Assembly: GCA_002784465.1 (NCBI GenBank)
Contig: PFLE01000004.1
Coordinates: forward strand, 91,855 to 141,683
Reading direction: 5' to 3'
From: Candidatus Shapirobacteria bacterium CG_4_10_14_0_8_um_filter_39_15
GTDB taxonomy: Bacteria > Patescibacteriota > Microgenomatia > UM-FILTER-39-15
DNA length: 49,829 bases
The position numbers and the translations under genes were made by a program. Positions 8,564 through 48,027 of the stretch are shown here, in pieces. Every line of letters begins with the position of its first letter. Positions within the stretch are counted from its first letter, which is position 1. Below the pieces are notes generated by a model. That model saw nothing but the letters and a program-made list of their open reading frames with translations. It ran no database searches and was not told the DNA's origin.

Positions 8564-10615
8564 CTAATTTGGTTCGACTTTGGGCTTAGATGAACGCTGA
8601 AGTTTTTCGGCAAGCAAGGGATACTGATTTAATTTACCAATTAGTGATTCTGCCGCCTGGCGGGTTTCTTGAATTAATTCCAGGTCGGAATAGCTGGCGA
8701 TTTTTAAATCGGGAAATCCGTGTTGAGTTATTCCATAAACTTCTCCCGGCCCGCGCATCCGTAAATCCATTTCCGCCAATTCCATTCCAAGATGACTTGT
8801 TTCCATCATTTTCAGGCGCTGGACGGCCTTTCCTTCGGTTAAATCGCTGAAAAGCAGACAATAAGATTCCTTCATTCCCCGACCGACTCTACCGCGCAGC
8901 TGATGGAGCTGGGCTAACCCGAATCTGTCAGCGGCCTCGATTAACATTATCGTTGCCCGGGGAATATCAATCCCAACTTCCACCACCGGGGTGGAAACCA
9001 GAATATCCAAATCCCCTTTCCGAAATTCTTCAATCGTTTGATCTTTTTCTTTTGATTTCATTCGGCCGTGCAAAAGACCTAATCTTAAATCCGGAAAAAC
9101 CTGATTTTTTAATTTTTCAAATTCGACGGTCACCGCCTTAACTGTTTTCAAGGATTCTGACTCCTCTATCAAAGGACAGATAACAAAAGCCGTTTCATCG
9201 GTATCTTTAACGTGTTTTTTAATCCAATTGTAAGCATCCTGGCGTTTGGTTGGCGGGACAACCCAGGTTTTAACTTTTAACCGGCCAATCGGCATTTCGT
9301 CAATCACCGATAAATCCAAATCTCCATATAAGGTTAAGGCAATGGTTCTGGGAATTGGAGTCGCGGTCATGGTCAAAACATGAGGCGTCTGACCTTTGTT
9401 AACCAGTTGGCTTCTTTGTTCAACGCCAAAGCGGTGCTGTTCATCGATGATAACCAGACCTAGATTGTTAAAAATATTTTTGTTGTAAAGAAGAGCATGG
9501 GTACCGACAACGATATCAGATTGTTTTATTGCTATATTGCTATATTGTTTTTTGGAGCTGGTCGTAAGATTAATTGTCAGCCCAAACGGAGTTAACAATT
9601 GTTTTAATGTTTGATAATGCTGATTGGCTAATATTTCCGTTGGGGCCATAATGGCGGATTGAAAACCATTGAGATGAGCAACATACATGGCGATTGCGGC
9701 AACCACCGTTTTTCCTGACCCAACATCTCCTTGAAGCAGACGGTTCATCGGTTGGGATTTCGTCAGATCAGCCAGAATTTCTTTGACACAGCGTTTTTGG
9801 GCATTGGTTAATTCAAAAGGCAGCGATTCGGTAAATTGAGAAATTTTTGACTGATCAATTGAAAAGGGTTTTGATAGTTTTTCTTTTTGCCAGTCATTTT
9901 TTCTTTTTAAACCTTTCAACTGAATCATTAAAAGTTCATCAAAAGCCAGCCTTTTTCTGGCCAAATCAATTTGATTTTGATTTTCAGGAAAGTGAATATA
10001 AATGAGTGCTTGAGACAAGGGAATCAATTGCTGCTGATCCAATAAATCTATCGGTAAGTAATCGATTAAGGTTGGTAAAAAATCTTTCAGTAATGGTGCA
10101 ATTCTGGATCTTAACCATTTAGAACTAACACCATAGGTTTCGGGATAAATAGGAACTAATCTGCCGGTGTGAATGGGTACTTTGTTGTTTGCTTGCACTG
10201 TAAGTGTTGTATGTTGTATATTTTCGTATTCGGGAGAGATCATGACAATCTGATGGCCGAAGAACTCGATTTTACCGGAAAAATTATAGCTTTCCCCTAT
10301 CTTGAATGTTTTAACTAAATATATTTGATTGAACCAGATGATTTGAATTTGTCCCGAATCATCAGCCACAATTGCTTTTTGAATTTTTTTGCCGTTTTTA
10401 GTATATTCGTTAACTATTGAAATGAGTTGTCCTTTGATGGTAACGATTTCCCCTGGTTGGACCTTAGCAATTGGAGAAATCAACGAAAAATCATCGTAGC
10501 GGAAAGGAAAATGAAAAATTAAATCTTCAATCGTTTCGATTCCCAACTTAGTCAATCTTCGGGCGTAAGTTTGGCCAACCATAAAAAGTTGGGAAACCGG
10601 GGTTTCAAGATTCAT
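8564..10615 (-). CDS. recG: ATP-dependent DNA helicase RecG
   Basis: The product has 683 residues. An N-terminal wedge/OB domain (about residues 50-170) is followed by the superfamily 2 helicase core: Walker A LLQGDVGSGKTVVAAI, the DEQH box IIDEQHRFGVEQR, motif III MTATPIPRTIALTLYG and motif VI QLRGRVGRG. RecG remodels stalled replication forks and Holliday junctions. The length is normal. A short array of two ATTGCTAT units plus a partial third encodes residues of about 355-362, in a variable loop. Three bases separate it from the upstream microprotein gene, so it belongs to the tyrS-recG transcription unit. Confidence 0.97.
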   Translation of the reverse strand: MNLETPVSQLFMVGQTYARRLTKLGIETIEDLIFHFPFRYDDFSLISPIAKVQPGEIVTIKGQLISIVNEYTKNGKKIQKAIVADDSGQIQIIWFNQIYLVKTFKIGESYNFSGKIEFFGHQIVMISPEYENIQHTTLTVQANNKVPIHTGRLVPIYPETYGVSSKWLRSRIAPLLKDFLPTLIDYLPIDLLDQQQLIPLSQALIYIHFPENQNQIDLARKRLAFDELLMIQLKGLKRKNDWQKEKLSKPFSIDQSKISQFTESLPFELTNAQKRCVKEILADLTKSQPMNRLLQGDVGSGKTVVAAIAMYVAHLNGFQSAIMAPTEILANQHYQTLKQLLTPFGLTINLTTSSKKQYSNIAIKQSDIVVGTHALLYNKNIFNNLGLVIIDEQHRFGVEQRSQLVNKGQTPHVLTMTATPIPRTIALTLYGDLDLSVIDEMPIGRLKVKTWVVPPTKRQDAYNWIKKHVKDTDETAFVICPLIEESESLKTVKAVTVEFEKLKNQVFPDLRLGLLHGRMKSKEKDQTIEEFRKGDLDILVSTPVVEVGIDIPRATIMLIEAADRFGLAQLHQLRGRVGRGMKESYCLLFSDLTEGKAVQRLKMMETSHLGMELAEMDLRMRGPGEVYGITQHGFPDLKIASYSDLELIQETRQAAESLIGKLNQYPLLAEKLQRSSKPKVEPN
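9528..9551. repeat. 8-nt micro-array inside recG
   Basis: Two perfect units of ATTGCTAT are followed by a degenerate third unit. It is in frame with RecG and falls in a loop between helicase motifs. It is short, so chance cannot be excluded for this copy alone. Confidence 0.45.
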
Positions 10616-10618
10616 AAA

Positions 10619-10729
10619 TTATTGGAAGAGAGTCATCAGGGCCGGTAAGAACGAAGTTAGAATTAACGCCAGGGAAGAGATAAAAATAATAATTGTCCAA
10701 AGTTTTTTCTGTCTTTTTGAAAGATTCAT
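10619..10729 (-). CDS. 36-residue membrane microprotein
   Basis: A small reading frame begins MNLSKRQKKLWTIIIFISSL and ends TAA at 10619-10621. It has a basic N-terminus (KRQKK) followed by one strong hydrophobic helix, so it should be a single-span inner-membrane peptide. Its ATG overlaps the tyrS stop (ATGA) and it ends 3 nt before the recG start; this tight fit between two genes supports translation. There is no known family that I can name with certainty. Confidence 0.7.
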   Translation of the reverse strand: MNLSKRQKKLWTIIIFISSLALILTSFLPALMTLFQ

Positions 10730-11913
10730 TTTATTTTGATTTTAACAAATTTTCTTTTGCCAACCTTAATAATACTACCATTTTTAAGAGATATTGGAGA
10801 CTGGATATTCGATATTGGAGAGTTATTAATATCAACTGCACCTTGTTCGATCAATCTTTTGGCCTCGGATCTTGAAGTGACCAGCTGGGAGTCAACCAAT
10901 AAGTCAATAATGTTCACTGGTTGGCTGGCTTGCCCTGAGTCTTGTCGAAGGGTTATTTGGTATTCTGGCAGATTGTCAGACGGAATTTCTTTTTCTTGAA
11001 AAACTCTTTCAAATTCATGCTGGGCTTTTTGAGCGGCATCTAATGAATAAAGTTGCTTAATTATTTCTGCAGCGAGTTTTTTCTTTTGATTCATGGGGGA
11101 AATATTCTCGGGTGATACATCCGTTAAAAGTTCATACCCCAAATTAATCATTTCATCCGGCCAGGACATAATTTTTCCGTAAATATCGTTTGGTTTGTCA
11201 ACTAAAGAAATAAAATTATCACCAGTTTTACTCATTTTTTCTTTTCCTGGTTCAGCCAAAAGTTTCGTTGTTAAAACAAATTTTTCTTTTCCTTTCATCT
11301 TTTTCATCAGGTCACGGCCAGTTAACATGTTAAAAGTTTGATCTGAACCCCCCACTTCTAGATCAACGTCCATCGCGACTGAGTCATATCCTTGCATTAA
11401 GGGATAAAGAAATTCACTTAAGAAAAGATCTTTACCCTCTTTTATTCTTTTTTGAAACATGTCTCTTTCGATGACTTGAGCATAAGTTAATAATGATGCT
11501 ATATTGGCGACTTCTGAATAGCTTAATTTATCAAGCCATTCGCTGTTATATTTTATTTCTGCGGGATTTCCCCCTTCAAACCTAAGAATTTTTGAAGCCT
11601 GTTCTTTGTAGTTTTTAGCATTCTCCAAAACTTGTTCCCTGGTTAATGGTTTTCTGGTTTCACTTTTTCCGGATGGATCACCGATCATACCGGTAAAATC
11701 TCCAATGAGCATAATTACCCCATGGCCTAAATCCTGGAATTGGCGTAATTTACGGAGGACAACCATATGTCCTAGATGGAGAGTGTTTCCAGTGGGATCA
11801 ATTCCATTGTAGAGCCTGATTTTCTTTCCCGAGCGCAAGACTTTCTCCAATTCTTGTTTGCTCGGATAAACGTTCGCTACTCCCCTACTTAAAACTTCAT
11901 CAATTTTATCCAT
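10726..11913 (-). CDS. tyrS: Tyrosyl-tRNA synthetase
   Basis: The product has 395 residues. The class I core has the HIGH-like motif HLGHMVVLRKL and the KMSKS-like motif KMSKTGDN, with a C-terminal S4 RNA-binding domain from about residue 330. The second of two ATGs (11913) is preferred because a TAAAAT box ends 6 nt before it. An array of 7-nt units (GATATTG type) encodes residues of about 363-374 and inserts ISNIQSPIS into the S4 domain. The gene is followed by the membrane microprotein and recG. Confidence 0.95.
   Translation of the reverse strand: MDKIDEVLSRGVANVYPSKQELEKVLRSGKKIRLYNGIDPTGNTLHLGHMVVLRKLRQFQDLGHGVIMLIGDFTGMIGDPSGKSETRKPLTREQVLENAKNYKEQASKILRFEGGNPAEIKYNSEWLDKLSYSEVANIASLLTYAQVIERDMFQKRIKEGKDLFLSEFLYPLMQGYDSVAMDVDLEVGGSDQTFNMLTGRDLMKKMKGKEKFVLTTKLLAEPGKEKMSKTGDNFISLVDKPNDIYGKIMSWPDEMINLGYELLTDVSPENISPMNQKKKLAAEIIKQLYSLDAAQKAQHEFERVFQEKEIPSDNLPEYQITLRQDSGQASQPVNIIDLLVDSQLVTSRSEAKRLIEQGAVDINNSPISNIQSPISLKNGSIIKVGKRKFVKIKIK
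10790..10824. repeat. 7-nt micro-array inside tyrS
   Basis: Five consecutive heptamers related to GATATTG occur, two of them identical. It is in frame with TyrS. The same unit occurs in pheS at 17996-18030. Confidence 0.75.
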
Positions 11914-11919
11914 AAACAT

Positions 11920-17239: not shown

Positions 17240-18249
17240 ATTATTTGGTAAGAAATATCGCCGTTATATAAAGAACGAATATCATTAATTTCAAACCGAT
17301 CCATAACCAAGCGATCCAAACCCATTCCAAAAGCAAAACCGGTAATTTCTTTGGGATTATGACCGCAGTTTTTTAAAATATTAGGATGAATCATTCCGCA
17401 GCCAAGCATTTCCAGCCAACCGCGGCCTTTACAAACTGAACAGCCTTTTCCTTTGCAGAATGGACAATCCAAATCCAATCCCCCGCCCGGTTCGACTTCC
17501 GGGTAATATTTACAGCGGAATCTGACTTTCCTTTCTTGCCCAAAAAATTCTTTGACAAAATATAATAATGTTCCTTTTAAATCGGCCATGGTTAAACCTT
17601 TTTGTAAAGCCACCCCTTGAAATTGATAAAACATCGCGTTATTGCTGGCATTGACATTTTCATAACGATAACATTTTCCTGCCGCCACAATTCTAAAAGG
17701 CGGTTTACAGGTTGATAAAATTCTGGATTCAATCGAGGAAGTATGAGTTCTTAAAACAATTTCCGGATCTTCAATATATAAAGCATCCTGCAGACTTCTG
17801 GCCGGATGATCTTTAGGAAGATTTAATTTTTCAAAATTAAACTCATCGTTTTCAATTTCCCGATCCTCCATAAAAGAAAACCCCAGATGCTTGAAAATCT
17901 CAAACATTTCATTAATAACAATCGAGGTGGGATGAAGATGACCAATTTTAATTGGGGTTCCAGGTTCAGTCAGATCAACGATTTTTTCCTGACCAGATAT
18001 TGGATATTGGATATTGGATACTCGATTCTGGAGAACGTCTTCAATCGCTTTTTTGGCATCATTTAGGACTTTACCAAATTCACTTTTTTGTTCCGGATTC
18101 AAATTAGGAATTTGCTTGGTCAATTCAGATACCCGGCCGCTTCTTCCTAAATAGGCAATCCGCAAATTTTCCAATTCGTCTTTAGATTTTGCCTGAAGAA
18201 TGCTGGAAATCGCCTGGTTTTTTAAATTTTGAATAAGATTTATGTCCAT
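17236..18249 (-). CDS. pheS: Phenylalanyl-tRNA synthetase alpha subunit
   Basis: The product has 337 residues: an N-terminal coiled coil followed by the class II catalytic core with HPARSLQDALYI, VLRTHTSSIESRIL and FAFGMGLDRLVM (motif 3). A metal-binding-like CPFCKGKGCSVCKGRGW insertion lies between motifs 2 and 3. A 7-nt micro-array encodes residues of about 73-84 (SNIQYPIS), between the coiled coil and the catalytic core. A TAAAAT box 6 nt before the ATG suggests a leaderless pheST mRNA. Confidence 0.96.
   Translation of the reverse strand: MDINLIQNLKNQAISSILQAKSKDELENLRIAYLGRSGRVSELTKQIPNLNPEQKSEFGKVLNDAKKAIEDVLQNRVSNIQYPISGQEKIVDLTEPGTPIKIGHLHPTSIVINEMFEIFKHLGFSFMEDREIENDEFNFEKLNLPKDHPARSLQDALYIEDPEIVLRTHTSSIESRILSTCKPPFRIVAAGKCYRYENVNASNNAMFYQFQGVALQKGLTMADLKGTLLYFVKEFFGQERKVRFRCKYYPEVEPGGGLDLDCPFCKGKGCSVCKGRGWLEMLGCGMIHPNILKNCGHNPKEITGFAFGMGLDRLVMDRFEINDIRSLYNGDISYQII
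17996..18030. repeat. 7-nt micro-array inside pheS
   Basis: Three perfect GATATTG heptamers and two degenerate ones lie in tandem. The array is in frame and adds about 12 residues in a linker. The unit is the same as in tyrS. Confidence 0.85.
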
Positions 18250-25888: not shown

Positions 25889-27112
25889 TTATTTATAGTA
25901 TTTTTTTCCTTTTAATTTGTCTGGCAAAAGACTTTCTTTAGTATAAGAATCGTAGCCTTTACCGTAATTCAAATCTTTCATTAGTTTCGTTGGCGCATTT
26001 CTGATTACCAGAGGAATCGGCAAATTACCAAATTGTTTGACGTCTGCCAAAGCGGCCATGTAAGCGTTGTAAGCGGAGCGGTTTTTGGGTGATTTACACA
26101 AGTAAACCACTCCTACGGCAAGATTTTCCCGGCATTCGGGAAAGCCGATGGTTTCGCAGGCGCGGAATACTTCGTTGGCAACGACCAATGCGGTCGGTTG
26201 AGCCATGCCGATATCCTCGGAAGAAAAAACTACCATCCGGCGGGCAATAAATAAAGGATCTTCGCCAGCTTCAACCATTCGTGCTAAATAATATAAGGCG
26301 GCATCGACATTGCTGGCGCGCATACTTTTAATAAAAGCACTGATCGTGTTGTAGTGCTCTTCACCAAGCAGGTCATAATAGAGAGATTCCCGCTGAAGCG
26401 CATTCTGGATTACTTTTAGGTCAATTTGTTTCTTGGCGGGTAATAGTCGATCAGCTATTTCCAGAATATTCAGGACATTTCTAGAATCTCCGTTGGCCGA
26501 ATTGAGCAAAAAGTCTTTAGCATCTTTTGAAATCGTTTTTTTGAGTTCTTTTAGTCCTCGATCACAAATTATATCCAATTCTTCTTTTTCGAGTTGATTC
26601 AAGACGAATACGCGGCATCTGGATAGTAACGGACCGATGACCTCGAAAGACGGGTTCTCGGTGGTGGCGCCAATTAAAGTGATTGTTCCGTCTTCAACCG
26701 AAGGCAGAAAAGCATCCTGTTGGGCCTTATTAAAACGATGAATTTCATCGACAAATAAAATGGTTCGACTAGTTTTCTGGTTGTCTGGTTGTCTGGTAGA
26801 CGTAGAGCGAAGAGACAGTTGTTCACTTTTATTGATTCTTTCGCGGGCTTCTTTAATAATTTTTCGTACTTGATCTAAACCGGTAGTTACTGCAGAAAGA
26901 CTGACAAAGTGAGAGTTAGTTTCGGTAGCAATAATTCGTGCCAAAGAGGTCTTCCCTACTCCGGGCGGGCCCCAGAGGATCATTGATACCAGTTGATCCG
27001 ATTGAATAAGTTTTCTTAAGATTCCGTTCTGGCCGACTAAATGTTTTTGGCCGACAAATTCATCGAGATTTTTGGGTCTAACCCGTTCTGCAAGAGGGAT
27101 ATATGAATCCAT
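25889..27112 (-). CDS. rarA: Replication-associated recombination protein A (AAA ATPase)
   Basis: The product has 407 residues. Walker A is [14 protein letters not shown], Walker [17 protein letters not shown], sensor 1 [13 protein letters not shown], with the family C-terminus ([19 protein letters not shown]). RarA (MgsA) acts at stalled forks. An insertion of about 20 residues before Walker B (around [18 protein letters not shown]) is encoded in part by an 8-nt micro-array. It lies 3 nt after the preceding gene. Confidence 0.95.
26773..26804. repeat. 8-nt micro-array inside rarA
   Basis: Three units ending TCTGG (TTGTCTGG twice, perfect) and a degenerate fourth lie in frame just before the Walker B strand of RarA. 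Confidence 0.75.
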
Positions 27113-31556: not shown

Positions 31557-33599
31557 ATGAATTTTGAACTGAAATCAGATTATAAACCAGCCGGAGACCA
31601 GCAGCAGGCGATTGATAAATTGACAGCCGGAATTACTGCTGGTCTGCCTCATCAAGTATTATTAGGTGTTACGGGAAGCGGAAAAACCTACACGATTGCC
31701 AATGTCATTCAAAATATTCAGAAACCCGTTTTGGTAATTTCTCATAATAAGACCTTAGCAGCTCAACTTTATCAAGAATTTAAAGAATTTTTTCCCAATA
31801 ACGGCGTGGGATTTTTTATTTCTTATTATGACTATTACCAGCCGGAAGCCTATATTCCCCAAACCGATACTTATATTGCAAAGGAAACGGAAATTAACGA
31901 AGAGATTGATAAACTGCGTTTGCAAGCGACCAGTCTTTTGTTTTCCAGAAAAGACGTGATTATTGTCGCTTCTGTTTCCTGTATTTATAATCTGGGATCC
32001 CCGTTGGAATACGGGAAATATGTGATCGAACTGAAAAAAGGTCAGACCATTGATCGCGAGCAGTTTTTGTATAAATTAATTTCTTTGCATTATACAAGGG
32101 CAAAATTTGAGTTGGACAGGGGAAGCTTCCGAATCAGAGGTGAGGAAATAGAATTGATCCCCGCGTATGAGGACGTTATTCTTAAAATCACGATCGAAGA
32201 CGGTAAAATTAAAAATCTAAAAACAAGACCGTTGATTGCTGGTAATGAAAGAGAATTGGAAGGTTACTTAAAAATATACCCGGCAAAACACTTTTTAACC
32301 GATCCCAAGGTGTTTAATGAGTCGGAGAGGCAAATAAAACAGGATCTTGATATTCGTTTGAAAGAATTAAAAAAACAACGGAAAGAACTGGAGGCGCATC
32401 GGCTTGAACAGCGGGTAAAATATGATTTGGAAATGATTAAAGAAATCGGTTATGTCAATGGAATTGAAAATTATGCGCGCTATTTTGACGGCCGAATGCC
32501 GGGAGATCCGCCCTGGAGTTTAATGGATTATTTTCAGCATCTTTTTGGAGACGATTATTTGGTCGTGATTGACGAATCACATATGGCAATTCCCCAAATT
32601 CGCGGAATGCACCAAGGTGATTTAAGCCGGAAAAAAATGCTTATAAATTTTGGTTTTAGGCTTCCCTCGGCTTTAGACAATCGGCCTTTGAAATTTACGG
32701 AATATTTAAAAAGAGCGCCGCAAACAATATACGTATCAGCTACGCCCGACACATGGGAATTGGAATTGGCTGATACGAGTGCAAAGAAAATACAACAAAC
32801 AACAAAGAAAGAATTATACGGTGTTGTTGAACAGCTGATCAGACCAACGGGGTTAGTTGATCCGGAGGTGATTATTAAGCCGGCGGAAAAACAGATTGAA
32901 GATCTGGTGGAAGAAATTAAGAAAAGAAAAGAAAAGGGCGAAAGAGTGTTGGTGACGACTCTAACCAAAAAAACTGCCGAAGAATTGGCTTGGTGGCTGG
33001 AACAAGTTGAAAATACCAAGACTCCCCTGCTCGTTCATTATTTACACTCCGATGTTGGTACTTTGGAAAGAACAGATATTTTACGCGATCTGCGTTTGGG
33101 GAAATACGATGTCATTGTTGGTGTAAATTTATTAAGAGAAGGTTTAGATTTGCCTGAAGTTTCTTTGGTAGCAATTTTGGACGCGGACAAACAAGGATTT
33201 TTGCGGTCAAAAACTTCTTTAATTCAAACAATGGGAAGAGCTTCTCGAAATGTTGCCGGTCAAGTGATCCTTTATGCTGATCAGGAATCTTTGGCAATGA
33301 AGCAGGCGGTGGAAGAAGTGGGAAGAAGACGGAAAATCCAACTGGAATACAATTCAAAACATGGAATTATCCCAAAAACAATAGAGAAGCCGATCAGAGA
33401 AGGATTCGTAAACAGAAGCGAGAAGCGGGATGCGAGAAGCGGGAAAGTTTGGGAAACAGATTTTGAGTCATTGACACCAGGGGAAAAGAAAAAGATGATT
33501 CCTTTATTGAGAAGAGAAATGCGGGAAGCCGCTGGATTGTTGGATTTTGAGAAGGCAGCCATAATTAGAGACATGATTGAGGTTGTTTCAAAAAGATAA
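31557..33599 (+). CDS. uvrB: Excinuclease ABC subunit B
   Basis: The product has 680 residues. Walker A is VTGSGKTYTIANV; the beta-hairpin region is YYDYYQPEAYIPQTDTYI; further motifs are VIDESHMAIPQIRGM, YVSATPDTWELELA and QTMGRASRNVAG. A C-terminal UVR domain (REMREAAGLLDFEKAAIIRD) contacts UvrC. UvrB verifies DNA damage delivered by UvrA. The linker before the UVR domain (about residues 619-630) is coded by a 7-nt micro-array. uvrA and uvrC follow within 5 kb on the same strand. Confidence 0.97.
   Translation: MNFELKSDYKPAGDQQQAIDKLTAGITAGLPHQVLLGVTGSGKTYTIANVIQNIQKPVLVISHNKTLAAQLYQEFKEFFPNNGVGFFISYYDYYQPEAYIPQTDTYIAKETEINEEIDKLRLQATSLLFSRKDVIIVASVSCIYNLGSPLEYGKYVIELKKGQTIDREQFLYKLISLHYTRAKFELDRGSFRIRGEEIELIPAYEDVILKITIEDGKIKNLKTRPLIAGNERELEGYLKIYPAKHFLTDPKVFNESERQIKQDLDIRLKELKKQRKELEAHRLEQRVKYDLEMIKEIGYVNGIENYARYFDGRMPGDPPWSLMDYFQHLFGDDYLVVIDESHMAIPQIRGMHQGDLSRKKMLINFGFRLPSALDNRPLKFTEYLKRAPQTIYVSATPDTWELELADTSAKKIQQTTKKELYGVVEQLIRPTGLVDPEVIIKPAEKQIEDLVEEIKKRKEKGERVLVTTLTKKTAEELAWWLEQVENTKTPLLVHYLHSDVGTLERTDILRDLRLGKYDVIVGVNLLREGLDLPEVSLVAILDADKQGFLRSKTSLIQTMGRASRNVAGQVILYADQESLAMKQAVEEVGRRRKIQLEYNSKHGIIPKTIEKPIREGFVNRSEKRDARSGKVWETDFESLTPGEKKKMIPLLRREMREAAGLLDFEKAAIIRDMIEVVSKR
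33414..33448. repeat. 7-nt micro-array inside uvrB
   Basis: Heptamers AGAAGCG (three perfect) and related units occupy five positions. In frame, in the linker before the UVR domain. Confidence 0.8.
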
Positions 33600-38256: not shown

Positions 38257-38262
38257 CCCTTA

Positions 38263-38306: not shown

Positions 38307-38324
38307 GGCGTGATTAAAAATCAT

Positions 38325-39596
38325 ATGATAAACAAAGATAATCTATCTAAAATACCCAACAAACCCGGTACTTACTTGTTTAAGAATTCTAACAAGGAAG
38401 TAATATACGTTGGTAAGGCGCTAAACTTAAGAAATCGGGTAAAAAGTTACTTCATTGGTAAGTCCAAAGAAAATAGAACAGACAATTTACTCGAAAACAT
38501 TGAAAAGATTGATTATCAGATAGTAAACACAGAAATGGAAGCCTTGCTTTTGGAAGCCAGATTAATTAAACAGTACCATCCAAAATTCAATAAGCTTTTA
38601 AAAGATGATACTCGGTATTTGTATGTTGGCATTACTAAAGAGGAATATCCAAGAATAAAATTAATCCGCCAGCCGGAACACGAAGAAAATTTATTGGATT
38701 GGTATGGCCCATTCCCCTCCTCATACAGTCTGAAAGAAATTTTAAGATTTTTACGCCGGATATTTCCCTACTGCACTGATCCCCGCTGCAGTCCGAAAAA
38801 GCCCTGCTTTTATTATCGAATCAAGATGTGTCCCGGCGTGGGGATTGTTCCGTCATCTGAATACAAGAAAAATATTACTAAGATAAGAATGTTTTTAAAA
38901 GGCGAAGTAAGAAGTCTATTAAAAAAACTGGAAAAGCAAATGATTCTGGAATCAGCAAATTTAAAATTTGAACAAGCAGGAGAAACTAAAAAGAAAATCC
39001 AAATGATTAATAATCTTTTGGGAAAATATCAAAGAACAGACGAAGAAAGTAAATTTGGAAAACAATTAGCCGGCCTAAAAGAAATTTTAATCAAATATCA
39101 GGGGTTTGACCCGTTTATTATTAAAAGAATCGAAGGGTATGATGTTTCAAATTTAGGAAAAGGGATTGTTGTCGGATCAATGGTGGCTTTTATTAATGGC
39201 GAACCGGATAATTCTTTATACCGGCAATTCAGAATTGATAAATTTGGCGGCGATACCGAAGGAATTTACGAAATTTTGAAAAGAAGATTAAAACATCAGG
39301 AATGGATCTATCCGCAATTAATTTTGGTTGACGGAGGGAAAGGACAGGTATCAGCGGCGGTTAAAGCGGTAAAAGATCTAGGGATGTTGGGGAAGGTGGG
39401 GGTATTGGGGTTAGCAAAGGAATACGAAACCATTATAATTCCAAGATTCGGACAAGATTCAATTAAGGGATGGAAGGAAATAAGCCTGACTGCGAATTCC
39501 TTGCCACTACAATTGCTACAACATATTAGGGACGAGGCACATAGATTTGCACAACGTTACTACAAGAAAATTTATAAGAAAAATTTATTAAAATAG
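38325..39596 (+). CDS. uvrC: Excinuclease ABC subunit C, short form
   Basis: The product has 423 residues, against about 600 normally. A GIY-YIG nuclease domain (NKPGTYLFKN, VIYVGKALNLRNRVKSYF) is followed by a UVR domain (LEKQMILESANLKFEQAGE) and the RNase H-like 5' nuclease domain (EGYDVSNLGKG, LILVDGGKGQ). The C-terminal tandem HhH DNA-binding domain is missing. Both cutting activities appear present. The ATG at 38325 matches the family start; the upstream open frame covers the hairpin elements. A 9-nt micro-array codes residues of about 352-363. Confidence 0.95.
   Translation: MINKDNLSKIPNKPGTYLFKNSNKEVIYVGKALNLRNRVKSYFIGKSKENRTDNLLENIEKIDYQIVNTEMEALLLEARLIKQYHPKFNKLLKDDTRYLYVGITKEEYPRIKLIRQPEHEENLLDWYGPFPSSYSLKEILRFLRRIFPYCTDPRCSPKKPCFYYRIKMCPGVGIVPSSEYKKNITKIRMFLKGEVRSLLKKLEKQMILESANLKFEQAGETKKKIQMINNLLGKYQRTDEESKFGKQLAGLKEILIKYQGFDPFIIKRIEGYDVSNLGKGIVVGSMVAFINGEPDNSLYRQFRIDKFGGDTEGIYEILKRRLKHQEWIYPQLILVDGGKGQVSAAVKAVKDLGMLGKVGVLGLAKEYETIIIPRFGQDSIKGWKEISLTANSLPLQLLQHIRDEAHRFAQRYYKKIYKKNLLK
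39380..39415. repeat. 9-nt micro-array inside uvrC
   Basis: Four nonamers of the GGGGNNNTT type occur (for example AGGGATGTT and GGGGGTATT). In frame, producing Leu-Gly-rich residues in the nuclease domain. Confidence 0.8.
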
Positions 39597-39660: not shown

Positions 39661-40396
39661 ATTTGGTTTTTTGACAAAGTAAAAATATAGAAGGACCAAA
39701 ATTCACTTTGGCGAGGGGTTTTTGGAGAAGATTTTCAAAAAATAACAGTAGTTTTTCTGGAACAAGTTTTTTTATCAGTGGATAACGGAAATTGGAAACG
39801 GAGAGCCTGTCAATAACAACGAAACCTGATTCTTTTAATAATTCTTCAATTCTTTTGGGATGATGATTGACAAAAATAATTTTCCCTTCTGTTTTTGATT
39901 TTTCCGAACGAACATCAATCGGTTCTAAACTTTTATCAACCCCTCTTAATCTAGCTAGTAAATGAATTTTATTGGCATATTCAAGAATAAAAGATCCTTG
40001 GGGTTTTAAGACTCTATAAACCTCTTTAAAGGTTGGTAAAGGATCGGGAAGATGATGAGCCACACGGATCATTAGAGCAACTTCAAATTGGTCTTTGGGA
40101 AGCGAGTCGCTATTGGTTTTTAGAAAAGTCAGGGAATTCGGGGACTTCAGGGTAATCAGGGATTTTCTTGCTTCAGAAAGAAGGGATTCGGAGGGATCGA
40201 CGATAAAACATTTCCGGAACTCCGGAATATATAGATTTGCCAATCTGCCATATCCACCGCCAATATCAATAATCGAATCACGGGAATGAATTTGTTTTAA
40301 AAATTTATTGATAGCGAGACGTTCGGATTGATCCTCATAATTACGATTCTTCCAAAACAATTTGTAGTTGCAGGAATCGTAGGGTACAGATGGCAT
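39659..40396 (-). CDS. SAM-dependent methyltransferase
   Basis: The product is a 245-residue class I Rossmann methyltransferase: motif I IIDIGGGYGRLANLY, motif II CFIVDPSESLL, and MIRVAHHLPDPLPTFKEVYRV with LKPQGSFILEY, which is UbiE/Methyltransf_11-like. The substrate is unknown. Residues of about 77-88 come from a 9-nt micro-array at the motif III region. An extended -10 box ends 6 nt before the ATG. Confidence 0.85.
   Translation of the reverse strand: MPSVPYDSCNYKLFWKNRNYEDQSERLAINKFLKQIHSRDSIIDIGGGYGRLANLYIPEFRKCFIVDPSESLLSEARKSLITLKSPNSLTFLKTNSDSLPKDQFEVALMIRVAHHLPDPLPTFKEVYRVLKPQGSFILEYANKIHLLARLRGVDKSLEPIDVRSEKSKTEGKIIFVNHHPKRIEELLKESGFVVIDRLSVSNFRYPLIKKLVPEKLLLFFENLLQKPLAKVNFGPSIFLLCQKTK
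40103..40108 (-). other. No separate element: internal AT-rich site in the methyltransferase gene
   Basis: Listed only to prevent confusion with the promoter of this gene, which lies outside the coding region at 40403-40408. I see no regulatory site here. Confidence 0.05.
40131..40166. repeat. 9-nt micro-array inside the methyltransferase gene
   Basis: Four nonamers of the AGGGNNTTC type (AGGGAATTC, GGGGACTTC and two more). In frame; the period keeps three-residue steps. Confidence 0.8.
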
Positions 40397-40408: not shown

Positions 40409-40438
40409 TCAAAGATGAAGACGATTGTTAGATTGCTA

Positions 40439-40476: not shown

Positions 40477-41076
40477 TTATCGAAGTTCTTCAAGATATTG
40501 ATTAACGCATTTGGCCCATGGACCGCCTTTATCAATTGACGGAGGAACATACTTGGGCATAATTTGATCCGGAGTAACCAGGCCAATATCATAATAATCT
40601 TCTTTCAAAGTTTTCGCTACATATTCAATCGCGCCTTCCCAAGAAGTAAATCTTGATCCGCCATTCCCAAAACCCCAGCAATTGTAAGAGCCATAAGGAA
40701 TTTTTTTACAGACATTCGATTCGCATTGAGCAATCGCCACAATCAAACCATAATCAAGACCATATTGCTGGGATATTTTAAAAATATAATCAGAGTAAGG
40801 AGTCAAAGGAGAATTATATTTGTCCAGATAATTTTTGATCAAAACCGGACGGGCATCGGCTGGACTAATTAATGAATCAATCGTGCCCACAGGCGGCGGA
40901 AGCGGACTAAAATATTCAAGACTTGTTGTTGAAGCTGAAAGCACGGAAACGACCTTAGGGCTAATAAGAACTTGAGCGGGAGCTGTTTTAAACGACGACA
41001 AAAAAACAATAACCGCGGCAGATAAAGTCAACGGGGTTAAAGAAAAGAAAAAGATTAAAGGGAAAACTTTTTTCAT
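40477..41076 (-). CDS. Secreted lysozyme-like protein 2
   Basis: The product has 199 residues from MKKVFPLIFFFSLTPLTLSA (signal peptide); a TTG 15 codons upstream is less likely. The domain contains DYGLIVAIAQCESNVCKK, GSYNCWGFGNGG and FTSWEGAIEYVAKTLKEDYY, parallel to the protein at 30926-31432, here with a Cys pair around the likely catalytic Glu. The block NKYNSPLTPYSDYI (here DKYNSPLTPY) is shared. It probably acts on peptidoglycan or another glycan at the cell surface. Confidence 0.72.
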   Translation of the reverse strand: MKKVFPLIFFFSLTPLTLSAAVIVFLSSFKTAPAQVLISPKVVSVLSASTTSLEYFSPLPPPVGTIDSLISPADARPVLIKNYLDKYNSPLTPYSDYIFKISQQYGLDYGLIVAIAQCESNVCKKIPYGSYNCWGFGNGGSRFTSWEGAIEYVAKTLKEDYYDIGLVTPDQIMPKYVPPSIDKGGPWAKCVNQYLEELR

Positions 41077-41139
41077 TAAATTTGTTAATCTAATAATTCC
41101 AAACAAAGGAATAATTGTCAAGTTTTTCGCACGATCTGG

Positions 41140-41151: not shown

Positions 41152-41595
41152 ATGAGAAATAAAATACTTTTAGGATTTTTGGGGTCCTTGGGGTTGTTGG
41201 GGATTTTAATTATGCATAAAGACCAGGAAGAAAATTCTCTCATTATTAATAATAATAAAATCGAAGTCGAAATCGCGGACAATCTGGTTAGCCGCGCGCG
41301 CGGCTTGTCTGGCCGTAATAAACTAGAAAATAATCAGGGAATGCTGTTTATCTATGAAAAGCCAGGGATTTATACTTTTTGGATGAATTTAATGAAATTT
41401 AATTTGGATTTTGTTTATATTAACGGTAACCACGTGGTTGATTTTATCGAAGATGTTCCTTATCCAAAAACGGGCGAACTGCCAAAAATTGTTAATGCAA
41501 AAACGGAATTTGATAAAGTATTGGAGGTTAATTCGGGAATGATTAGGAGAATCGGGATAAAGATTGGTGATTTGGTAACGATTAAAACAGAATGA
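41152..41595 (+). CDS. DUF192 protein, membrane-anchored
   Basis: The product has 147 residues. An N-terminal hydrophobic helix (about residues 4-20) is followed by the DUF192 domain: VEIADNLVSRARGLSGR, GMLFIYEKPGIYTFWM, VYINGNHVVDF and the VLEVNSGMIRRIGIKIGD ending. The family has a small beta-fold and no firmly known role. The helix is coded by a 9-nt micro-array (residues of about 7-18). The stop overlaps the mtaB start (ATGA). Confidence 0.88.
   Translation: MRNKILLGFLGSLGLLGILIMHKDQEENSLIINNNKIEVEIADNLVSRARGLSGRNKLENNQGMLFIYEKPGIYTFWMNLMKFNLDFVYINGNHVVDFIEDVPYPKTGELPKIVNAKTEFDKVLEVNSGMIRRIGIKIGDLVTIKTE
41172..41207. repeat. 9-nt micro-array in the membrane helix of the DUF192 protein
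   Basis: Four nonamers (GGGGTCCTT, GGGGTTGTT and similar). In frame, giving Leu-Gly residues of the membrane anchor. Confidence 0.8.
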
Positions 41596-42788
41596 GCAAG
41601 AGTTTCTTTGTTTATAATTTTGGCTGCCGGGTGAATATGGCAGAAACATTGGAAATTCGAAGTGAGATGTTGGAAGCTGGATATGAAGAATCAGAGGACC
41701 AGCCCGACATTATACTTATTAACTCCTGCGCAGTGACCCAAAAGGCGGAAAAGGAAGTTCTTCAATTTATTAGAAGCAAAAGAAAAGAATTTCCCAAAGC
41801 AAAAATAATTGTAACGGGATGCGCTGCGGTGAAATGGGAAGGGAGAAAAGTACCAATCAACATCGAAAAAATTGGGAAAAAGAAAATCGACTCAGGAAAA
41901 AATATTTATGAAGAATCTGGGAGGACTTTAATTAAAATACAGGATGGATGCGATCAATTTTGCAGTTATTGTATAGTCCCTTATTTAAGAGGAAAGCCTA
42001 AGTCTAAGAAGATAAAGGAGATTATCAGGGAAATCAGGAATTTTGAGGTAATCAGGGAAATCATATTAACAGCGATAAATACCGATTTGTTTGGAAGCGA
42101 TAACGGAGAAAATCTTACTGATTTGATAAAAAAGATTTTGGATGAAACAGAAATAGAAAGATTGAGTTTTGGGTCAATTAATCAAAATTCAATAAACGAT
42201 GACTTGGTAAAAGTTTTTCAGTCACCCAGAATAGTGAAGTATTTCCATATCCCGATTCAGTCGGGTAGTGATAAAATTCTCGAATTAATGAACAGGAACT
42301 ACAAAGTAGAGGAAATTAGAGGAAAACTAGAGGAAGTTAAAAAACTTGACCCGTTGACATTTATAGGGACAGATATTATTGTTGGATTTCCGGGAGAAAC
42401 GGAAGAGAATTTCCAGGAGACTTATAAATTTTTAGAGCAATCCTCTATTTCCAGGTTTCATATTTTTAGATTTTCAAAAAGAGAAGGGACACTCGGTTGG
42501 AATTTGGAAAACAAGTTAGGAGCAGTTCCTGAATCGGTCAAAAAGTCTAGGTCTAAAGAACTGGAAGATTTGGGGAAAAGAAAATATCAAATATTTTTAG
42601 AGAAACACATTGGAAAAACATTTAAGGCTTTATTTCTGGTCAAGAAAGAAGGAAAATACCAAGAGGTTTTATTAGAAAACAATGTTCCTGCCTGGATTGA
42701 AACACAGAAGGATTTTAAGGGACAAATAATAGAAGTATCCATAGAAAATCTTAGAAATCGTCGACTTTTTGGTCAGGTGCCAAGCTAA
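41592..42788 (+). CDS. mtaB: tRNA t6A37 methylthiotransferase-like protein
   Basis: The product has 398 residues: an N-terminal UPF0004 domain with three Cys (NFGCRVNMAE, INSCAVTQKAE, VTGCAAVKW), the radical-SAM motif CDQFCSYCIVPYLRG, and a C-terminal TRAM-like part. Such enzymes add a methylthio group to t6A37 of tRNA. MtaB is preferred over MiaB because of the short linker and the GCRVN motif. The last residues (GQVPS) and the stop codon are supplied by a REP-like hairpin. A 9-nt micro-array codes residues of about 145-157. Confidence 0.88.
   Translation: MSKSFFVYNFGCRVNMAETLEIRSEMLEAGYEESEDQPDIILINSCAVTQKAEKEVLQFIRSKRKEFPKAKIIVTGCAAVKWEGRKVPINIEKIGKKKIDSGKNIYEESGRTLIKIQDGCDQFCSYCIVPYLRGKPKSKKIKEIIREIRNFEVIREIILTAINTDLFGSDNGENLTDLIKKILDETEIERLSFGSINQNSINDDLVKVFQSPRIVKYFHIPIQSGSDKILELMNRNYKVEEIRGKLEEVKKLDPLTFIGTDIIVGFPGETEENFQETYKFLEQSSISRFHIFRFSKREGTLGWNLENKLGAVPESVKKSRSKELEDLGKRKYQIFLEKHIGKTFKALFLVKKEGKYQEVLLENNVPAWIETQKDFKGQIIEVSIENLRNRRLFGQVPS
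42027..42062. repeat. 9-nt micro-array inside mtaB
   Basis: Four nonamers; the first and last are identical (AGGGAAATC). In frame, coding IREIRNFEVIREI-type residues. Confidence 0.85.
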
Positions 42789-43962: not shown

Positions 43963-43963
43963 T

Positions 43964-44758: not shown

Positions 44759-46129
44759 TTATCGAAGAAAGTTATACCAGAAATTGGTGATTCTATTGAC
44801 TAAACGGTTGAAAAAGGTTTGGCTGGTGTTGGTTAACTTCCAGGCTTCAAAGACAGTAACTCTATATTCCGGAAGGCCTTGCCAGGATAATAAATATTCT
44901 CCTGCGGTTGAAGGAGTAGAAAATTTAAAATCAAAGGAATATTTTTCGTCTGGTTTAATAATTACTTTATCAGGGAGAATCAGGGATGTTGGGGATATCG
45001 GGGAAGGGAGAGATAACAAGCGAAATAATTTTTCTCCCCAAATCGACTGACCGGTATTTTTTAAGGTAATTTTACCGATAAAAGTATTATTGGCGGGAAT
45101 GAAGGAAGGAAAGGAAATACTGACAATTTCTATTTTTTTAATTTGTTCCGGCTGACCGGCAACCTTTAACAACTGCTTAATTGTTTCATATTGAGGGTAA
45201 GGATTTCCTTGAGAATCAAACCAAGAAAAATTGTTAAACGGTTTCTCGGGATAATTGAGAATAAAAGGCGTCACTGCCGCAACCCGCTTGTCTGGTAGCC
45301 AAACATTCGTGAATGCCTGTTCCAGATAACCAGAAGTAATCAATTTCGAATTTCCGGAACGCGGCCATCCTGTTTCCGTAATGAACACGGGCAAATCTTT
45401 TTTTAAGCCAAAATTATTTTTCAAAACCAAAAGTTCCCATTCATAACCTTTGACGCTCGCCTTGCCCGTTTCCCAAGGCTTGCCAGTATAACCATGATTC
45501 GGGTAAGAATGAGAAGCCCAGCCATCCAATTTATTAAAAATTCCCGGAACTTCAAAATTCATTTGTTGGAGAAATTTGTATTCTTCCATCGTTGAATTGG
45601 AATTTGGCGCGGCTTGATCGAATCCGGCATTAAGAATAAAAAAATCAGCATTTTTATTTTTAAAAATGGCAATTGCTTGATCTAAAATATGAGAATATTC
45701 TTTTGGCTTTGTTTGATTTCCCCATTCTTTTGTCTGGTTTGGTTCGTTGAAAATAATCACGTAGCGGTTTTTTATCGGCCAATTAAGAGAGTCTAAGAAG
45801 TCAGTCCAAGAAGTTAAGGAATCGATGGTGGGAATTTTCCAAGTCTCCCCTATCGGCTCGGCCGCGATTCTAACTAAAGGAATTAAGTGTTTTTCCCGGC
45901 ATTGGTCAAAGAAATTCTGCCACTTATCATGATCATAGTCGTTTTCCTGAATAACAATGGTGACATATCCCCAATCACCGTCATTGGAATTAACCAATTC
46001 AGCCGCCTTATCAATATCACCTAAATGAGAAATGTGAATTCCAAATTTGTTGTTCTCGGAAGCAAAAACTGGCGTTTTGAGGCATAAAAATGCTAGAATA
46101 AAGATCAGTAAAAGTATCACGCGTTTCAT
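44759..46129 (-). CDS. Secreted glycoside hydrolase-like protein (clan A barrel)
   Basis: The product has 456 residues. Signal peptide [20 protein letters not shown] with a cleavage site near VFA-S. The barrel domain shows VIIFNEPNQ (acid/base Glu) and [11 protein letters not shown] (nucleophile Glu), the paired Glu of clan A glycosidases. From about residue 345 there is a beta-sandwich ([20 protein letters not shown]) like the Ig-type domain next to many such enzymes. The substrate is not readable. A micro-array codes residues of about 374-386 in the C-terminal domain. An extended -10 box ends 6 nt before the ATG. Confidence 0.8.
44972..45008. repeat. 9-nt micro-array inside the glycoside hydrolase gene
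   Basis: Units such as AGGGATGTT and GGGGATATC, with one 10-nt step. On the coding strand they give Pro/Ser/Ile-rich residues. Confidence 0.75.
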
Positions 46130-46141: not shown

Positions 46142-46155
46142 TCAAACTAACAGCG

Positions 46156-47268
46156 ATGGACGAAATTTCAGATCGAATCGAACAAATTAAAGAGGAAATG
46201 AGAACCACGCCGTATCACAAAGGGACGGAACATCATATTGGCCGGCTAAGAGCCAGATTAGCGGTTTTACAGGACCAATTGGTGGAAAGACAAAGTGGGG
46301 GCGGCGGGGGTGGTAAGGGATTTGAGGTAAAGCATTTTGGCGACGCCACCGTTGTTCTTGTTGGATTTCCTTCTGTCGGCAAGTCCACTTTGCTTAATGT
46401 CTTGACTTCGGCTCATTCAAAAATTGCTCCATATCCTTTTTCAACTTTAACCGTTATTCCGGGAATGATGGATTATTTGGGTGCGCAAATCCAGATTTTG
46501 GATGTTCCGGGATTAATTTCCGGAGCCGCTTCCGGTAAAGGTCATGGTAAACAAGTATTGGCGGTGGCCAGAAACGCGGATTTAATTGTTTTACTGGTAG
46601 AAACCAATCACCTTGAGCAGATTGCGCTGATGGAAAAGGAACTGGAACAAGCGGGCGTAAGAATTAACAAAACCAAACCTAACATTTTTATTAAGGAAAC
46701 CGAAAAAGGCGGAATTAAACTAAACTTATCAACTTCTCATTTAAGTTTGTCCAGAATGGAAATTGAAGGAATCGCGCAGGAATTTAGAATAACCAATGCG
46801 GAAATAACTTTTGAACAGGATATCACAATTGATAATCTGATTGATGCTTTTATGGCCAACCGTGTTTATATTCCGGCAATCACGGTGGTTAATAAAATAG
46901 ATCAAATTAGTTTGGGGGAGATGGGGGTTTTGGGAGAGTTGGGGGTGATAAGGGTAAGCGCGGAAAAAAAGATCGGGCTTGAGGAACTTAGGGAAAAGAT
47001 ATGGAAAAAATTAGGATTAATAAGAGTATATTTAAAAACAAAAGATGAAGAACCGGATTTAAGCGATCCGTTAATTATTAAGGAGGGACAGTCGGTAGAA
47101 GAGACGGCCAGAAAAATTCATGGGAATTTGGCTTTAACGATTAAAGAAGCGAAAGTTTGGGGTAAATCGGTAAAATTTCAGGCCCAAACTGTAAGCCCGG
47201 GACATATTCTTCAAGATGAAGATATTTTAATGCTGGTCAACCGCGAAACCAATACTCCTAATTCTTGA
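46156..47268 (+). CDS. DRG/Rbg-type GTPase with TGS domain
   Basis: The product has 370 residues. The N-terminal helical segment [19 protein letters not shown] and a Gly stretch lead to the GTPase: G1 [10 protein letters not shown]2 region [11 protein letters not shown]3 DVPG, and G4 NKID at about residue 249; a C-terminal TGS domain ([19 protein letters not shown]) follows. This order is that of archaeal and eukaryotic developmentally regulated GTP-binding proteins, not of bacterial Obg or YchF. DRGs bind ribosomes in eukaryotes. A 9-nt micro-array lies between G4 and G5. Confidence 0.88.
46912..46956. repeat. 9-nt micro-array inside the DRG-type GTPase gene
   Basis: Four nonamers of the TTGGGGGAG type and a degenerate fifth. 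In frame, coding Leu-Gly-Glu-Met/Leu repeats right after the NKID motif. Confidence 0.85.
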
Positions 47269-47972
47269 TTATTTAACTGTTCAAAAGATTTTTCCAAAAG
47301 AGACTCGGGTAATTGCAGATTATCTAATTTTACGACATTCTTAACTTTTGTTCCCCGATGGCTTGACAAAAATAATTCTTTAAACAAATATGAGTCTTGA
47401 TGAGCGGAAATCTCTTTCCTGGATTTGGGACTAAATTCAATTATAAAGGCGGGTGTTGGCGGTTGAGGAAAAAAATTATCTTTGGATAATTCTTTCAAAA
47501 CACGCCAATTGTAAAAAGTATTAACAAGCAAGGTTAATTTTCCAAAATTTGGATTTTGATAATCGGCTTCAATCTTGGAGTAAAATCTGGCCCCAAGAGT
47601 AAAAACCGCCTTTTTAATCGGCCAATTAAATATTTTCATAAATAAAGGTTCGATAATGTGATATGGAAGGCTTCCAATTAGGTATTTTGAGTTGCTTAAG
47701 TTACTTAAGTTTAAGGTAAGAAAATCGGCAAAAATAACCTTCAAATTTCGGTTTTTTTGTTCCATTTTTCTAAGATCACCGAAACGATCTTTATCAATTT
47801 CAACCGCAGTTAATTGTTTAGCATTTTTAGCCAGTAATTCAGTTAACCGGCCATCACCGGCACCGATTTCGGCAACAATTTGATTCTTGGGAACTTGTTT
47901 AGCAAGAAATTCAAGGGTTTCCTTATTGACTAAAAAATGCTGACCCAAATATGTTTTATGAATTATTTCCAT
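47211..47972 (-). CDS. rsmA: 16S rRNA dimethyladenosine transferase (RsmA/KsgA)
   Basis: The product has 253 residues. N-terminus [19 protein letters not shown], motif [24 protein letters not shown], and the catalytic motif IV as GSLPYHI, where the family normally has NLPY (Asn replaced by Ser). It should methylate two adenines near the 16S 3' end, unless the change affects activity. Its last 58 nt overlap the end of the convergent GTPase gene. Residues of about 85-94 are coded by a 9-nt micro-array. Confidence 0.9.
47691..47717. repeat. 9-nt micro-array inside rsmA
   Basis: GTTGCTTAA, GTTACTTAA and a degenerate third unit. In frame, coding LNLSNLSNS just before motif IV. Confidence 0.65.
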
Positions 47973-47978
47973 ATATGA

Positions 47979-47984
47979 ATTTTA
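47979..47984 (-). promoter_or_regulatory. -10 box of rsmA
   Basis: TAAAAT on the minus strand ends 6 nt before the ATG at 47972. Confidence 0.55.
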
Positions 47985-47991
47985 CACCATC

Positions 47992-48027
47992 AGGGAAATC
48001 TGGGATATCAGGGATATTGAGGTATAA
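47992..48027. repeat. 9-nt micro-array in the rsmA-RNHCP gap
   Basis: Four nonamers (AGGGAAATC, TGGGATATC and two more). The last unit contributes most of the -10 box of the RNHCP gene. Confidence 0.8.

Follow-up and report, generated by a model that had tools for sequence, protein, structure and literature searches.

Genome-wide arrays of short degenerate tandem units, 7 to 9 nucleotides long, in a Patescibacteria genome

Results

The window, the whole stretch of 49,829 nucleotides that was analyzed, carried short tandem arrays in and between its genes. Each array was given a lag-match score (match +1, mismatch −1), and array coordinates are given below on the + strand with the period (p). 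All of the arrays listed in the initial annotation were present. In the case of recG (8564-10615, −), an octamer block of the ATTGYTAN family was located antisense at 9520..9547 (score 16, p8) with the units ATTGTTTT ATTGCTAT ATTGCTAT ATTG. It covered residues 357-366, QYSNIAIKQS, which were variable in three relatives, and both the family and a TTTT variant were found again in other coding copies. A two-unit copy of the family (ATTGTTAGATTGCTA) was located at 40424..40438 (G000:C19:132278-132292, G000 being the source genome), between genes 39659-40396 and 40477-41121. tyrS (10726-11919, −) contained a weak heptamer block of the GATATTG family at 10790..10819 (score 11, p7), covering residues 367-377, where relatives showed 2-residue gaps. 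In pheS (17236-18249, −), three GATATTG units and two degenerate units at 17996..18032 (score 22, p7) encoded residues 73-85, the linker ahead of the catalytic domain. The same linker in relatives was encoded by different 7- or 8-nt arrays or a palindrome (AAATTAG x5 in G049 and AAACTGGA x4 in G011, against CAATATC x3.6 in G000). The rarA gene (25889-27112, −) carried an octamer block of the CTRGTNNN family, CTGGTTGT, at 26769..26797 (score 17, p8). Its residues 106-115 sat in a 17-residue insert that was missing from most of 29 class relatives. Another octamer block (TAAAAGAG/CAAGAGAG) at 28154..28191 (score 18, p8) fell in the signal-peptide region of ORF 27410-28216 (−), its N-terminal hydrophobic segment. 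The uvrB gene (31557-33599, +) contained a heptamer block of the AGAAGCG/GAAGCGG family at 33414..33445 (score 15, p7). It encoded residues 620-630, RSEKRDARSGK, in a linker that was hypervariable when UvrB was aligned with 29 relatives, and the near-identical peptide KRSEKRDAGSGKK was encoded by another gene, C12.

The remaining arrays were nonamers. Four GGG at spacing 9 were found in uvrC (38238-39596, +) at 39381..39413 (score 10, p9), and in one relative the array residues aligned ungapped and were conserved in part (GKVGVLGL vs GKVGLLGL). A similar block of four GGG at spacing 9 lay antisense in a methyltransferase gene (39659-40396, −) at 40126..40161 (score 13, p9) and had 21 nt in common with an array at C16:28533. 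In the DUF192 gene (41152-41595, +, Pfam DUF192), the GGG nonamer block TTGGGGTCC at 41168..41207 (score 15, p9) was in the N-terminal hydrophobic segment. mtaB (41592-42788, +) carried ATCAGGGAA units of irregular spacing at 42024..42063 (TRF 9-nt, 63% match; score 6, p9). The ATCRGGGA nonamer units of a glycoside hydrolase ORF (44759-46129, −) were antisense at 44972..45004 (score 9, p9), with three exact GGG at spacing 9. In a DRG-type GTPase gene (46156-47268, +), four GGG at spacing 9 at 46913..46955 (score 12, p9) encoded residues 253-267, which were variable in archaeal and class relatives; a scan of the genome collection with this GTPase gave archaeal relatives only. The last two were the block TTAAGTTAC in rsmA (47211-47972, −) at 47687..47711 (score 12, p9) and the block ATCAGGGAT between rsmA and the RNHCP gene at 47989..48017 (score 14, p9).

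With periods 7-9 pooled, 12 segments of the window scored >=12, while third-order Markov copies of the window gave about 1.05. The initial annotation had named an equal yield of arrays in control sequences as refuting, and the controls fell short of this. Ten of the 14 named arrays scored >=12 where about one per window was expected by chance, and these ten were therefore individually convincing. The tyrS, uvrC, glycoside hydrolase and mtaB arrays were not separable from chance on their own scores; the last three were all members of the GGG-nonamer family, which was over-represented genome-wide.

A lag scan was performed on 808 kb of the source genome (0.82 Mb, 97% complete; relatives 0.5-1.7 Mb), sizes that point to Patescibacteria. 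It gave 116 self-match segments at lag 7, 71 at lag 8 and 34 at lag 9, compared to 0-1 in simulations. Lags 5, 10, 11 and 13 were near background, and the excess was concentrated at 7, 8 and 9 and their multiples. This supported the earlier proposal of a genome-wide process. Synonymous codons were shuffled inside genes, and the coding counts fell from 72 to 3-6 (p7), from 28 to 0-2 (p8) and from 21 to 4-7 (p9). Since the shuffle removed most of the coding signal, the signal arises at the DNA level, and protein-level selection for repeats was rejected. An assembly artefact was unlikely because identical patterns were seen in two single-contig genomes. These results confirmed that the micro-repeat arrays are a real, genome-wide feature. 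The claim that nearly all arrays are in frame inside conserved genes held for the window. It did not hold genome-wide, where nonamers were mostly coding, octamers mostly intergenic and heptamers both.

At least seven unit families recurred. An exact unit was shared with another array in 64 of 84 octamer arrays (controls 2-4) and in 80 of 116 heptamer arrays (controls 21-29), as expected from the suggestion that loci have unit families in common. Spacing was family-specific and fixed within each motif family. GGG runs of three or more numbered 61 at spacing 9 and 2-20 at spacings 6, 7, 8, 10, 11 and 12. In the ATTGYTAN family, runs of AWTG were enriched at spacing 8 only: 14 had four units, 15 had five and one was longer. 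GAAG at spacing 7 gave 15 runs of four and 2 of five. AAAA runs of four were enriched at spacing 7 only (n=36), with no runs of five, and the four-unit peak of AAAA, GTAGA and AATCY recurred in other species. Blocks of the AAAA family, and those of GTAGA and AATCY in G037, are part of ordered composite elements, so that their four-unit counts are not independent, a point against the explanation favored below. Free slippage does not predict that several families should have most blocks at four (to five) units. The term "expands" in the initial annotation was too simple, as no geometric fall was seen in these families and as the uvrC residues were conserved in part, with no gap, in the one relative. 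However, GGG nonamers fell smoothly with unit number (38, 20, 3) and one G037 family was open-ended, with up to 15 units. This is the behavior that slippage would give, and it counts against the explanation favored below. In the GAAG and GGG families, the letters at degenerate positions were nearly independent of unit index and block partner, and most blocks are therefore not recent copies of a single master. The ATTGYTAN family was found in 15 of 380 phylum genomes. The AAAAKTC family was found in 73 of 187 class genomes, and its reversed pattern gave few matches.

The leading (GC-skew) strand carried the G-rich blocks, even where the gene had the opposite orientation. Among 44 confidently oriented GGG loci, of which 37 were in called genes, the leading:lagging ratio was 39:5, a bias for which composition partly accounts (single GGG 1.6:1; 1.6 cubed is about 4:1). 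Within lagging-strand genes, GGG and GAAG blocks were 11:0 on the leading strand. Single GAAG in such genes was 529:693, the opposite direction to GAAG blocks.

Seven inverted pairs of ATTGYTAN blocks were found, and the arrangement was identical in all seven. Folding gave mixed results. One G037 island formed an imperfect hairpin of about 450 nt (z −3.6), and among six inverted elements of the source genome three gave z −3.8 to −5.2 and three gave z −0.7 to −1.8. In the three ATTGYTAN pairs inspected, the two arms often mismatched at the variable T/C position. A hairpin kept by base pairing was rejected on these arm mismatches and on the three of six elements that folded little better than shuffles. 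RNA folding of five in-gene arrays followed no consistent pattern: three were within z ±0.6 and two reached about −2.

The comparison relatives of the source genome all came from outside its species, genus and family, and the comparison with G056 covered 279 kb. In 155 array-ortholog pairs, gaps occurred at array-coded residues in 61%, compared to 15% in control windows, and identity was 21% compared to 48%. In-gene blocks therefore lie where orthologues are gapped or variable. These gaps, together with the RarA insert and the PheS linker, agreed with the expectation that relatives differ, at gap positions, in having or lacking an array, and the RarA insert is an example of the small length changes anticipated in widely conserved proteins. 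The contrary pattern named in advance, orthologues with the same residues and no gaps, was seen in part for uvrC in the one relative, against the 61% of pairs gapped overall. In the congeners G037 and G016, islands of 158-581 bp lay opposite short spacers, and empty sites were seen at 459 bp vs 22, 336 vs 33, 158 vs 18 and 384 vs 48. The G037 islands (150-680 bp) reused modules, and several had no counterpart in G016. No obvious target-site duplication was found at the insertion junctions examined in this comparison. These results showed that two species of the same genus differ in their blocks and in longer mosaics of blocks.

Discussion

The initial annotation had called this process unrecognised and had referred to short tandem repeats of cyanobacteria. 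The word "unrecognised" was not supported, and neither was the idea of a restriction to cyanobacteria; this kind of element is already known from other lineages. Judging from part of the published description (PMC2700814), the elements of Geobacter metallireducens are closely similar. They are multicopy tandem octa- and heptanucleotide elements, described as "global regulator binding sites" of classes 1-3 and Gmet_H4, and class 1 sites have insertion sequences at a fixed distance. As here, there are many loci and several families, with blocks of four tandem octanucleotides (GTTGCTYN) that form opposite-strand pairs at varying distances and four-heptamer blocks (GGACCGG) in and between genes. 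The ATTGYTAN family showed both of the former traits, blocks of four octanucleotides at spacing 8 and opposite-strand pairs, the seven described above. The unit sequences in that part of the description differ from ours; GTTGCTYN and ATTGCTAN have the core TTGCT in common and differ at other positions. The same part contains no replication-strand orientation or protein-gap test.

The GGGNATC heptamers of Xanthomonas and Nostoc (PMC4692102) are also G-rich and genome-wide, and four units are preferred. However, their period is 7, while GGG here was enriched at spacing 9 and hardly at 7. In Xanthomonas they are 89-93% intergenic, at more conserved places, and have no leading/lagging preference, in contrast to the mostly coding, leading-strand nonamers here. 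The TAACTGA heptamers of Beggiatoaceae, cyanobacteria and Bacteroidetes (PMC4679880) resemble our arrays as short direct heptamers that are patchy across lineages, some of them lying in ORFs at protein peripheries. They consist of a single favored word, near-miss words are rarely repeated, and they are mostly directly upstream of start codons, whereas we found many degenerate families, several mostly within genes. The intron heptamers reported in 2002 are degenerate, pair in a hairpin and vary in copy number, but occupy one intron position and are not genome-wide. Borg tandem repeats, according to the part of the report used here (PMC9879509), evolve fast and create new protein segments, but belong to archaeal extrachromosomal elements. 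Simple sequence repeats of phase variation are near-perfect and open-ended, whereas the present units are degenerate and in several families most often number four to five, with GGG declining smoothly. TIGR arrays alternate 8-12-nt repeats with 9-nt spacers, the unit being repeated 5-15 times (PMC12045711), and were rejected on architecture, as our blocks are isolated single-motif runs without alternation.

The recurrence and turnover of the blocks point to a DNA-writing or motif-maintaining process. Our tentative preference is that the arrays are genome-wide micro-elements of about four (3-5) degenerate 7-, 8- or 9-nt units, which a trans-acting, replication-coupled process may write or maintain in a motif-specific manner. 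A postulated nucleic-acid-binding factor or polymerase habit would stop near four units. New blocks would land widely. Purifying selection would retain blocks in two kinds of place: between stop and start codons, where they often form an inverted pair able to fold as a hairpin, and in frame within loops, linkers, signal peptides or membrane helices; the rest would be removed.

Block copying, REP-transposase mobility and free slippage were each a poor fit alone. Dispersed copy-and-paste, in which blocks, notably the intergenic inverted pairs, would be non-autonomous REP- or MITE-like palindromes copied whole and then decaying, with coding arrays as landed copies, is possible although we consider it unlikely. 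The ordered AAAAKTC blocks with conserved flanking units, the reuse of modules by the G037 islands and the absence of several of these islands from G016, the uniform inverted pairs and the folding of the G037 island and of half of the six inverted elements (the other half being weak) are consistent with it, and the few exact shared blocks (28 nt GAAG, 33 nt ATTG) mean that some copying happens. However, block sharing was barely above that of randomly dealt units (GAAG 1 vs 0.8; ATTG 5 vs 1.7, maximum 6), with AAAA as the exception (4 vs 0.3), which weakened master-copy transposition as the main source, and the junctions had no obvious target-site duplication. REP palindromes are likewise dispersed intergenic inverted elements, and Y1_Tnp genes are common in this class, but REPs have no tandem 7-9-nt blocks, and in the cases that were compared the content of Y1 (REP-type) transposase genes did not follow that of the arrays. 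G058 had 90 AAAAKTC matches and no Y1 match, G018 had 18 Y1 matches and no AAAAKTC match, and one of four Y1 genes recovered in the source genome was near an array, compared to 33% of similar-size genes, which is no enrichment. On these comparisons, the Y1 transposase was rejected as the mobiliser.

Less probable still is that the blocks are selected recognition sites, putative clusters read by a DNA- or RNA-acting protein with four sites. The four-unit peak and the paired four-octamer sites in the Geobacter description agree with this, as do the ATTGYTAN degeneracy, unchanged in distant genomes, and the two-letter degeneracy at free positions (GAAG[CT][GT][AG], ATTG[CT]TAN), an apparent constraint that is partly by construction because the search required motif anchors. 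However, the reader protein is hypothetical, and blocks in unrelated housekeeping genes, at sites differing between relatives, fit poorly with a conserved regulatory site. A further alternative is plain slipped-strand duplication, acting on local seeds of 7-9 nt, in which families would result only from the commonness of some words. The narrow period range, the degenerate units, the falling GGG counts and some long open-ended arrays in G037 agree with it. We regard it as improbable, since identical units were shared far more often than units drawn from the genome, spacing was family-specific with a peak at four, and identical families occurred in other genera. Clusters of a Chi-like recombination hotspot are very improbable. 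GAAGCGG is a Chi-like heptamer in Staphylococcus aureus (PMC8022716), its copies were 162 leading vs 52 lagging, and an open frame of about 1000 aa with a PDDEXK_1 nuclease domain was present in most class genomes. However, GAAGCGG was not over-represented (162 vs 155 expected, order-5 Markov), 14 of 90 same-composition words exceeded its strand share, and it would account for one of at least seven families.

What is new is that the elements occur in Patescibacteria, belong to many families at once, are abundant inside genes, have G-rich blocks oriented by replication strand and peak at four units across families. Earlier reports, from Geobacter, cyanobacteria, Xanthomonas and Beggiatoaceae, were piecemeal, and a separate explanation was offered for each (regulator site, quadruplex or translation control). 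The co-occurrence of many families in a single reduced genome, in which spacing is fixed by family and a size of four units recurs, suggests a common origin that was invisible to single-family studies and is now testable. As a broader and rather speculative extension, a postulated replication-coupled activity in Patescibacteria and the lineages with similar elements might write blocks of about four 7-9-nt units, of few degenerate motifs, at many sites. In this view a single-strand binder with four sites, for example four OB folds that each cover about 8 nt, could determine both the length and the number of the units. The arrays provide a concrete DNA-level source for lineage-specific linker and loop insertions in PheS, RarA, UvrB and similar proteins. 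If it exists, the replication-coupled block-writing activity would be a continuing supply of small in-frame insertions in essential proteins.

Arrays in the window and in the genome

The window covers positions 91855-141683, at the end of contig C19, in a genome of 815,648 bases and 21 contigs. The initial annotation had named 14 arrays of degenerate 7-, 8- or 9-nt units, and Tandem Repeats Finder listed nearly all of them. When matches were scored +1 and mismatches -1 at a lag equal to the period, 10 of the 14 reached at least 12, and those in tyrS, uvrC, the hydrolase and mtaB were individually weak. Across the whole window, 12 segments of periods 7-9 scored at least 12, compared with about 1 expected. 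An exact 21-nt match and the encoded peptide LKSPNS were common to two GGG nonamer blocks that lie antisense in separate genes, at 40126-40161 and at position 28533 of contig C16. Five tRNA genes were present, all on the + strand (22481, 44546, 44624, 48461 and 49164). The DRG-type GTPase at 46156-47268 (+) had only archaeal relatives in the genome collection (Altiarchaeota, Nanoarchaeota, Woesearchaeota and Micrarchaeota; 41-47% identity). It was also present in class members and may have been acquired long ago from DPANN archaea.

Genome-scale counts were made on 808 kb, taken as stretches. Runs and scored segments were in excess at lags of 7, 8 and 9 and at multiples of these. Segments scoring at least 14 numbered 116, 71 and 34 at lags 7, 8 and 9, respectively, versus 0-1 in order-5 Markov copies. 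Lags 5, 10, 11 and 13 were near background under the same scoring. Within genes, the excess at periods 7, 8 and 9 was 72, 28 and 21 versus 3-6, 0-2 and 4-7 after synonymous codons were shuffled with the protein kept. The in-gene excess outlasted this shuffle, and therefore the array signal is of DNA-level origin.

Unit families and their placement

Recurrent units were the heptamers AAAAGTC/AAAATTC, GAAGYGG, GATATTG and TTTCGAA, the octamers ATTGYTAN, CTGGTTNT and ACAGTAAA, and the nonamer ATCRGGGAA with its relatives. The sharing of families among many loci was borne out, since 64 of 84 octamer arrays had their exact consensus unit elsewhere, versus 2-4 for randomly drawn units. Each anchor, the core word of a family, favoured one spacing in runs of at least three (AWTG 8, GAAG 7, GGG 9) or, for AAAA, in runs of four (7). 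For AWTG, GAAG and AAAA, unit numbers had their peak at four to five, and a peak at four was also found for AAAA in the relative G016 and for AAAA, GTAGA and AATCY in its congener G037. GGG nonamers fell smoothly with unit number without a four-unit peak, and one G037 family was open-ended.

By an approximate gene call, nonamers were chiefly coding, octamers chiefly intergenic, and heptamers in both. Many intergenic ATTGYTAN blocks started within ~20 nt past a stop codon, and seven had an inverted partner downstream, often near the next start codon. Six of seven coding copies were antisense; several carried a TTTT variant, which we read as avoidance of an in-frame stop. Blocks of the GGG and GAAG families tracked the GC-skew leading strand, and in oppositely oriented genes 11 of 11 did so. 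Single GAAG in such genes preferred the coding strand (529:693), contrary to the blocks. Composition accounts for part of the GGG-block bias.

Orthologues and relatives

Arrays had been predicted to sit at orthologue gap positions. Among 155 array-orthologue pairs, a gap lay in or beside the array in 61% versus 15% of control windows, and identity over array residues was 21% versus 48%. Conserved ungapped residues did occur as exceptions; those of uvrC were partly kept without a gap in the relative G056. The RarA array lay within a 17-residue insert absent from most relatives, and the UvrB array sat in a hypervariable linker. In the PheS linker, this genome and the relatives G049 and G011 each had a different 7- or 8-nt array, G056 had a heptamer-like stretch, and G035 had a palindrome. 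Palindrome-like inserts encoding RHPERSEGS, LPRRQAG and GGGCGAATCACGATTCGCCC were seen in the same protein loops of other lineages (stretches L089 and L086, RarA; L120, PheS). A ~1000-aa PDDEXK_1 nuclease-domain protein, widespread in the class, contained three micro-arrays (C16:30636-33618).

The 7/8/9 period excess was common to the class. AAAAKTC pairs occurred in 73 of 187 class genomes and ATTGYTAN triplets in 15 of 380 phylum genomes. Three-unit ATTGYTAN blocks were also seen in 15 IMG/VR contigs (L263-L277; phage or bacterial fragments). The congeneric single-contig genomes G037 and G016 were ~75% identical at one syntenic locus. Their first 200 kb, stretches not mutually orthologous, held 107 and 22 heptamer segments. 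Several G037 islands stood against short orthologous G016 spacers (459/22, 336/33, 158/18 and 384/48 bp), a gain or loss not polarised by an outgroup, and no obvious target-site duplication was seen in this comparison. One island, missing from G016, can fold as a ~450-nt imperfect hairpin. The islands (L201-L210; e.g. 122231-122690) were 150-680 bp of consecutive heptamer blocks with recurring modules (AAGTAGA, AATCTAT, TTTTGAG, CGGACAT and GTATTAT).

Origin of the blocks

The arrays had been put down to an unrecognised process; that label was not supported, since elements of this kind are already known. In Geobacter metallireducens, four octanucleotides in tandem make up each of 48 class 1 sites, which are paired on opposite strands, and 49 elements of four heptamers lie within and between genes (PMC2700814). 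GGGNATC heptamers of Xanthomonas and Nostoc prefer four units and are mostly intergenic, in Xanthomonas with no replication-strand preference (PMC4692102). TAACTGA heptamers occur in Beggiatoaceae and cyanobacteria (PMC4679880). No description of such arrays in Patescibacteria turned up in the literature searched, which had few subscription papers. What is new, as far as could be found, is that many families occur together, that their spacing follows fixed rules, and that the four-unit peak extends across families.

Exact block sharing between loci was about that of units dealt at random, except for AAAA blocks, and variable letters were independent of unit index in GAAG and GGG blocks. Therefore, recent copying from a single master does not account for most blocks; some order was seen in ATTG and AAAA blocks. 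Y1 transposases were considered as the mobiliser and rejected, because in the genomes and loci compared their presence did not follow that of the arrays. The genome had 13 Y1_Tnp (REP-type) matches in 0.82 Mb, among the highest class counts (e.g. C15:19021-19287 and C3:5337-5609). Some inverted pairs of this genome folded well, and in-gene arrays showed no consistent RNA folding. On the block-sharing, Y1 and folding results, we favour a motif-specific process at the DNA level that would form or maintain blocks of four units. The formation step is what we infer from these patterns, and selection may decide where the blocks survive.
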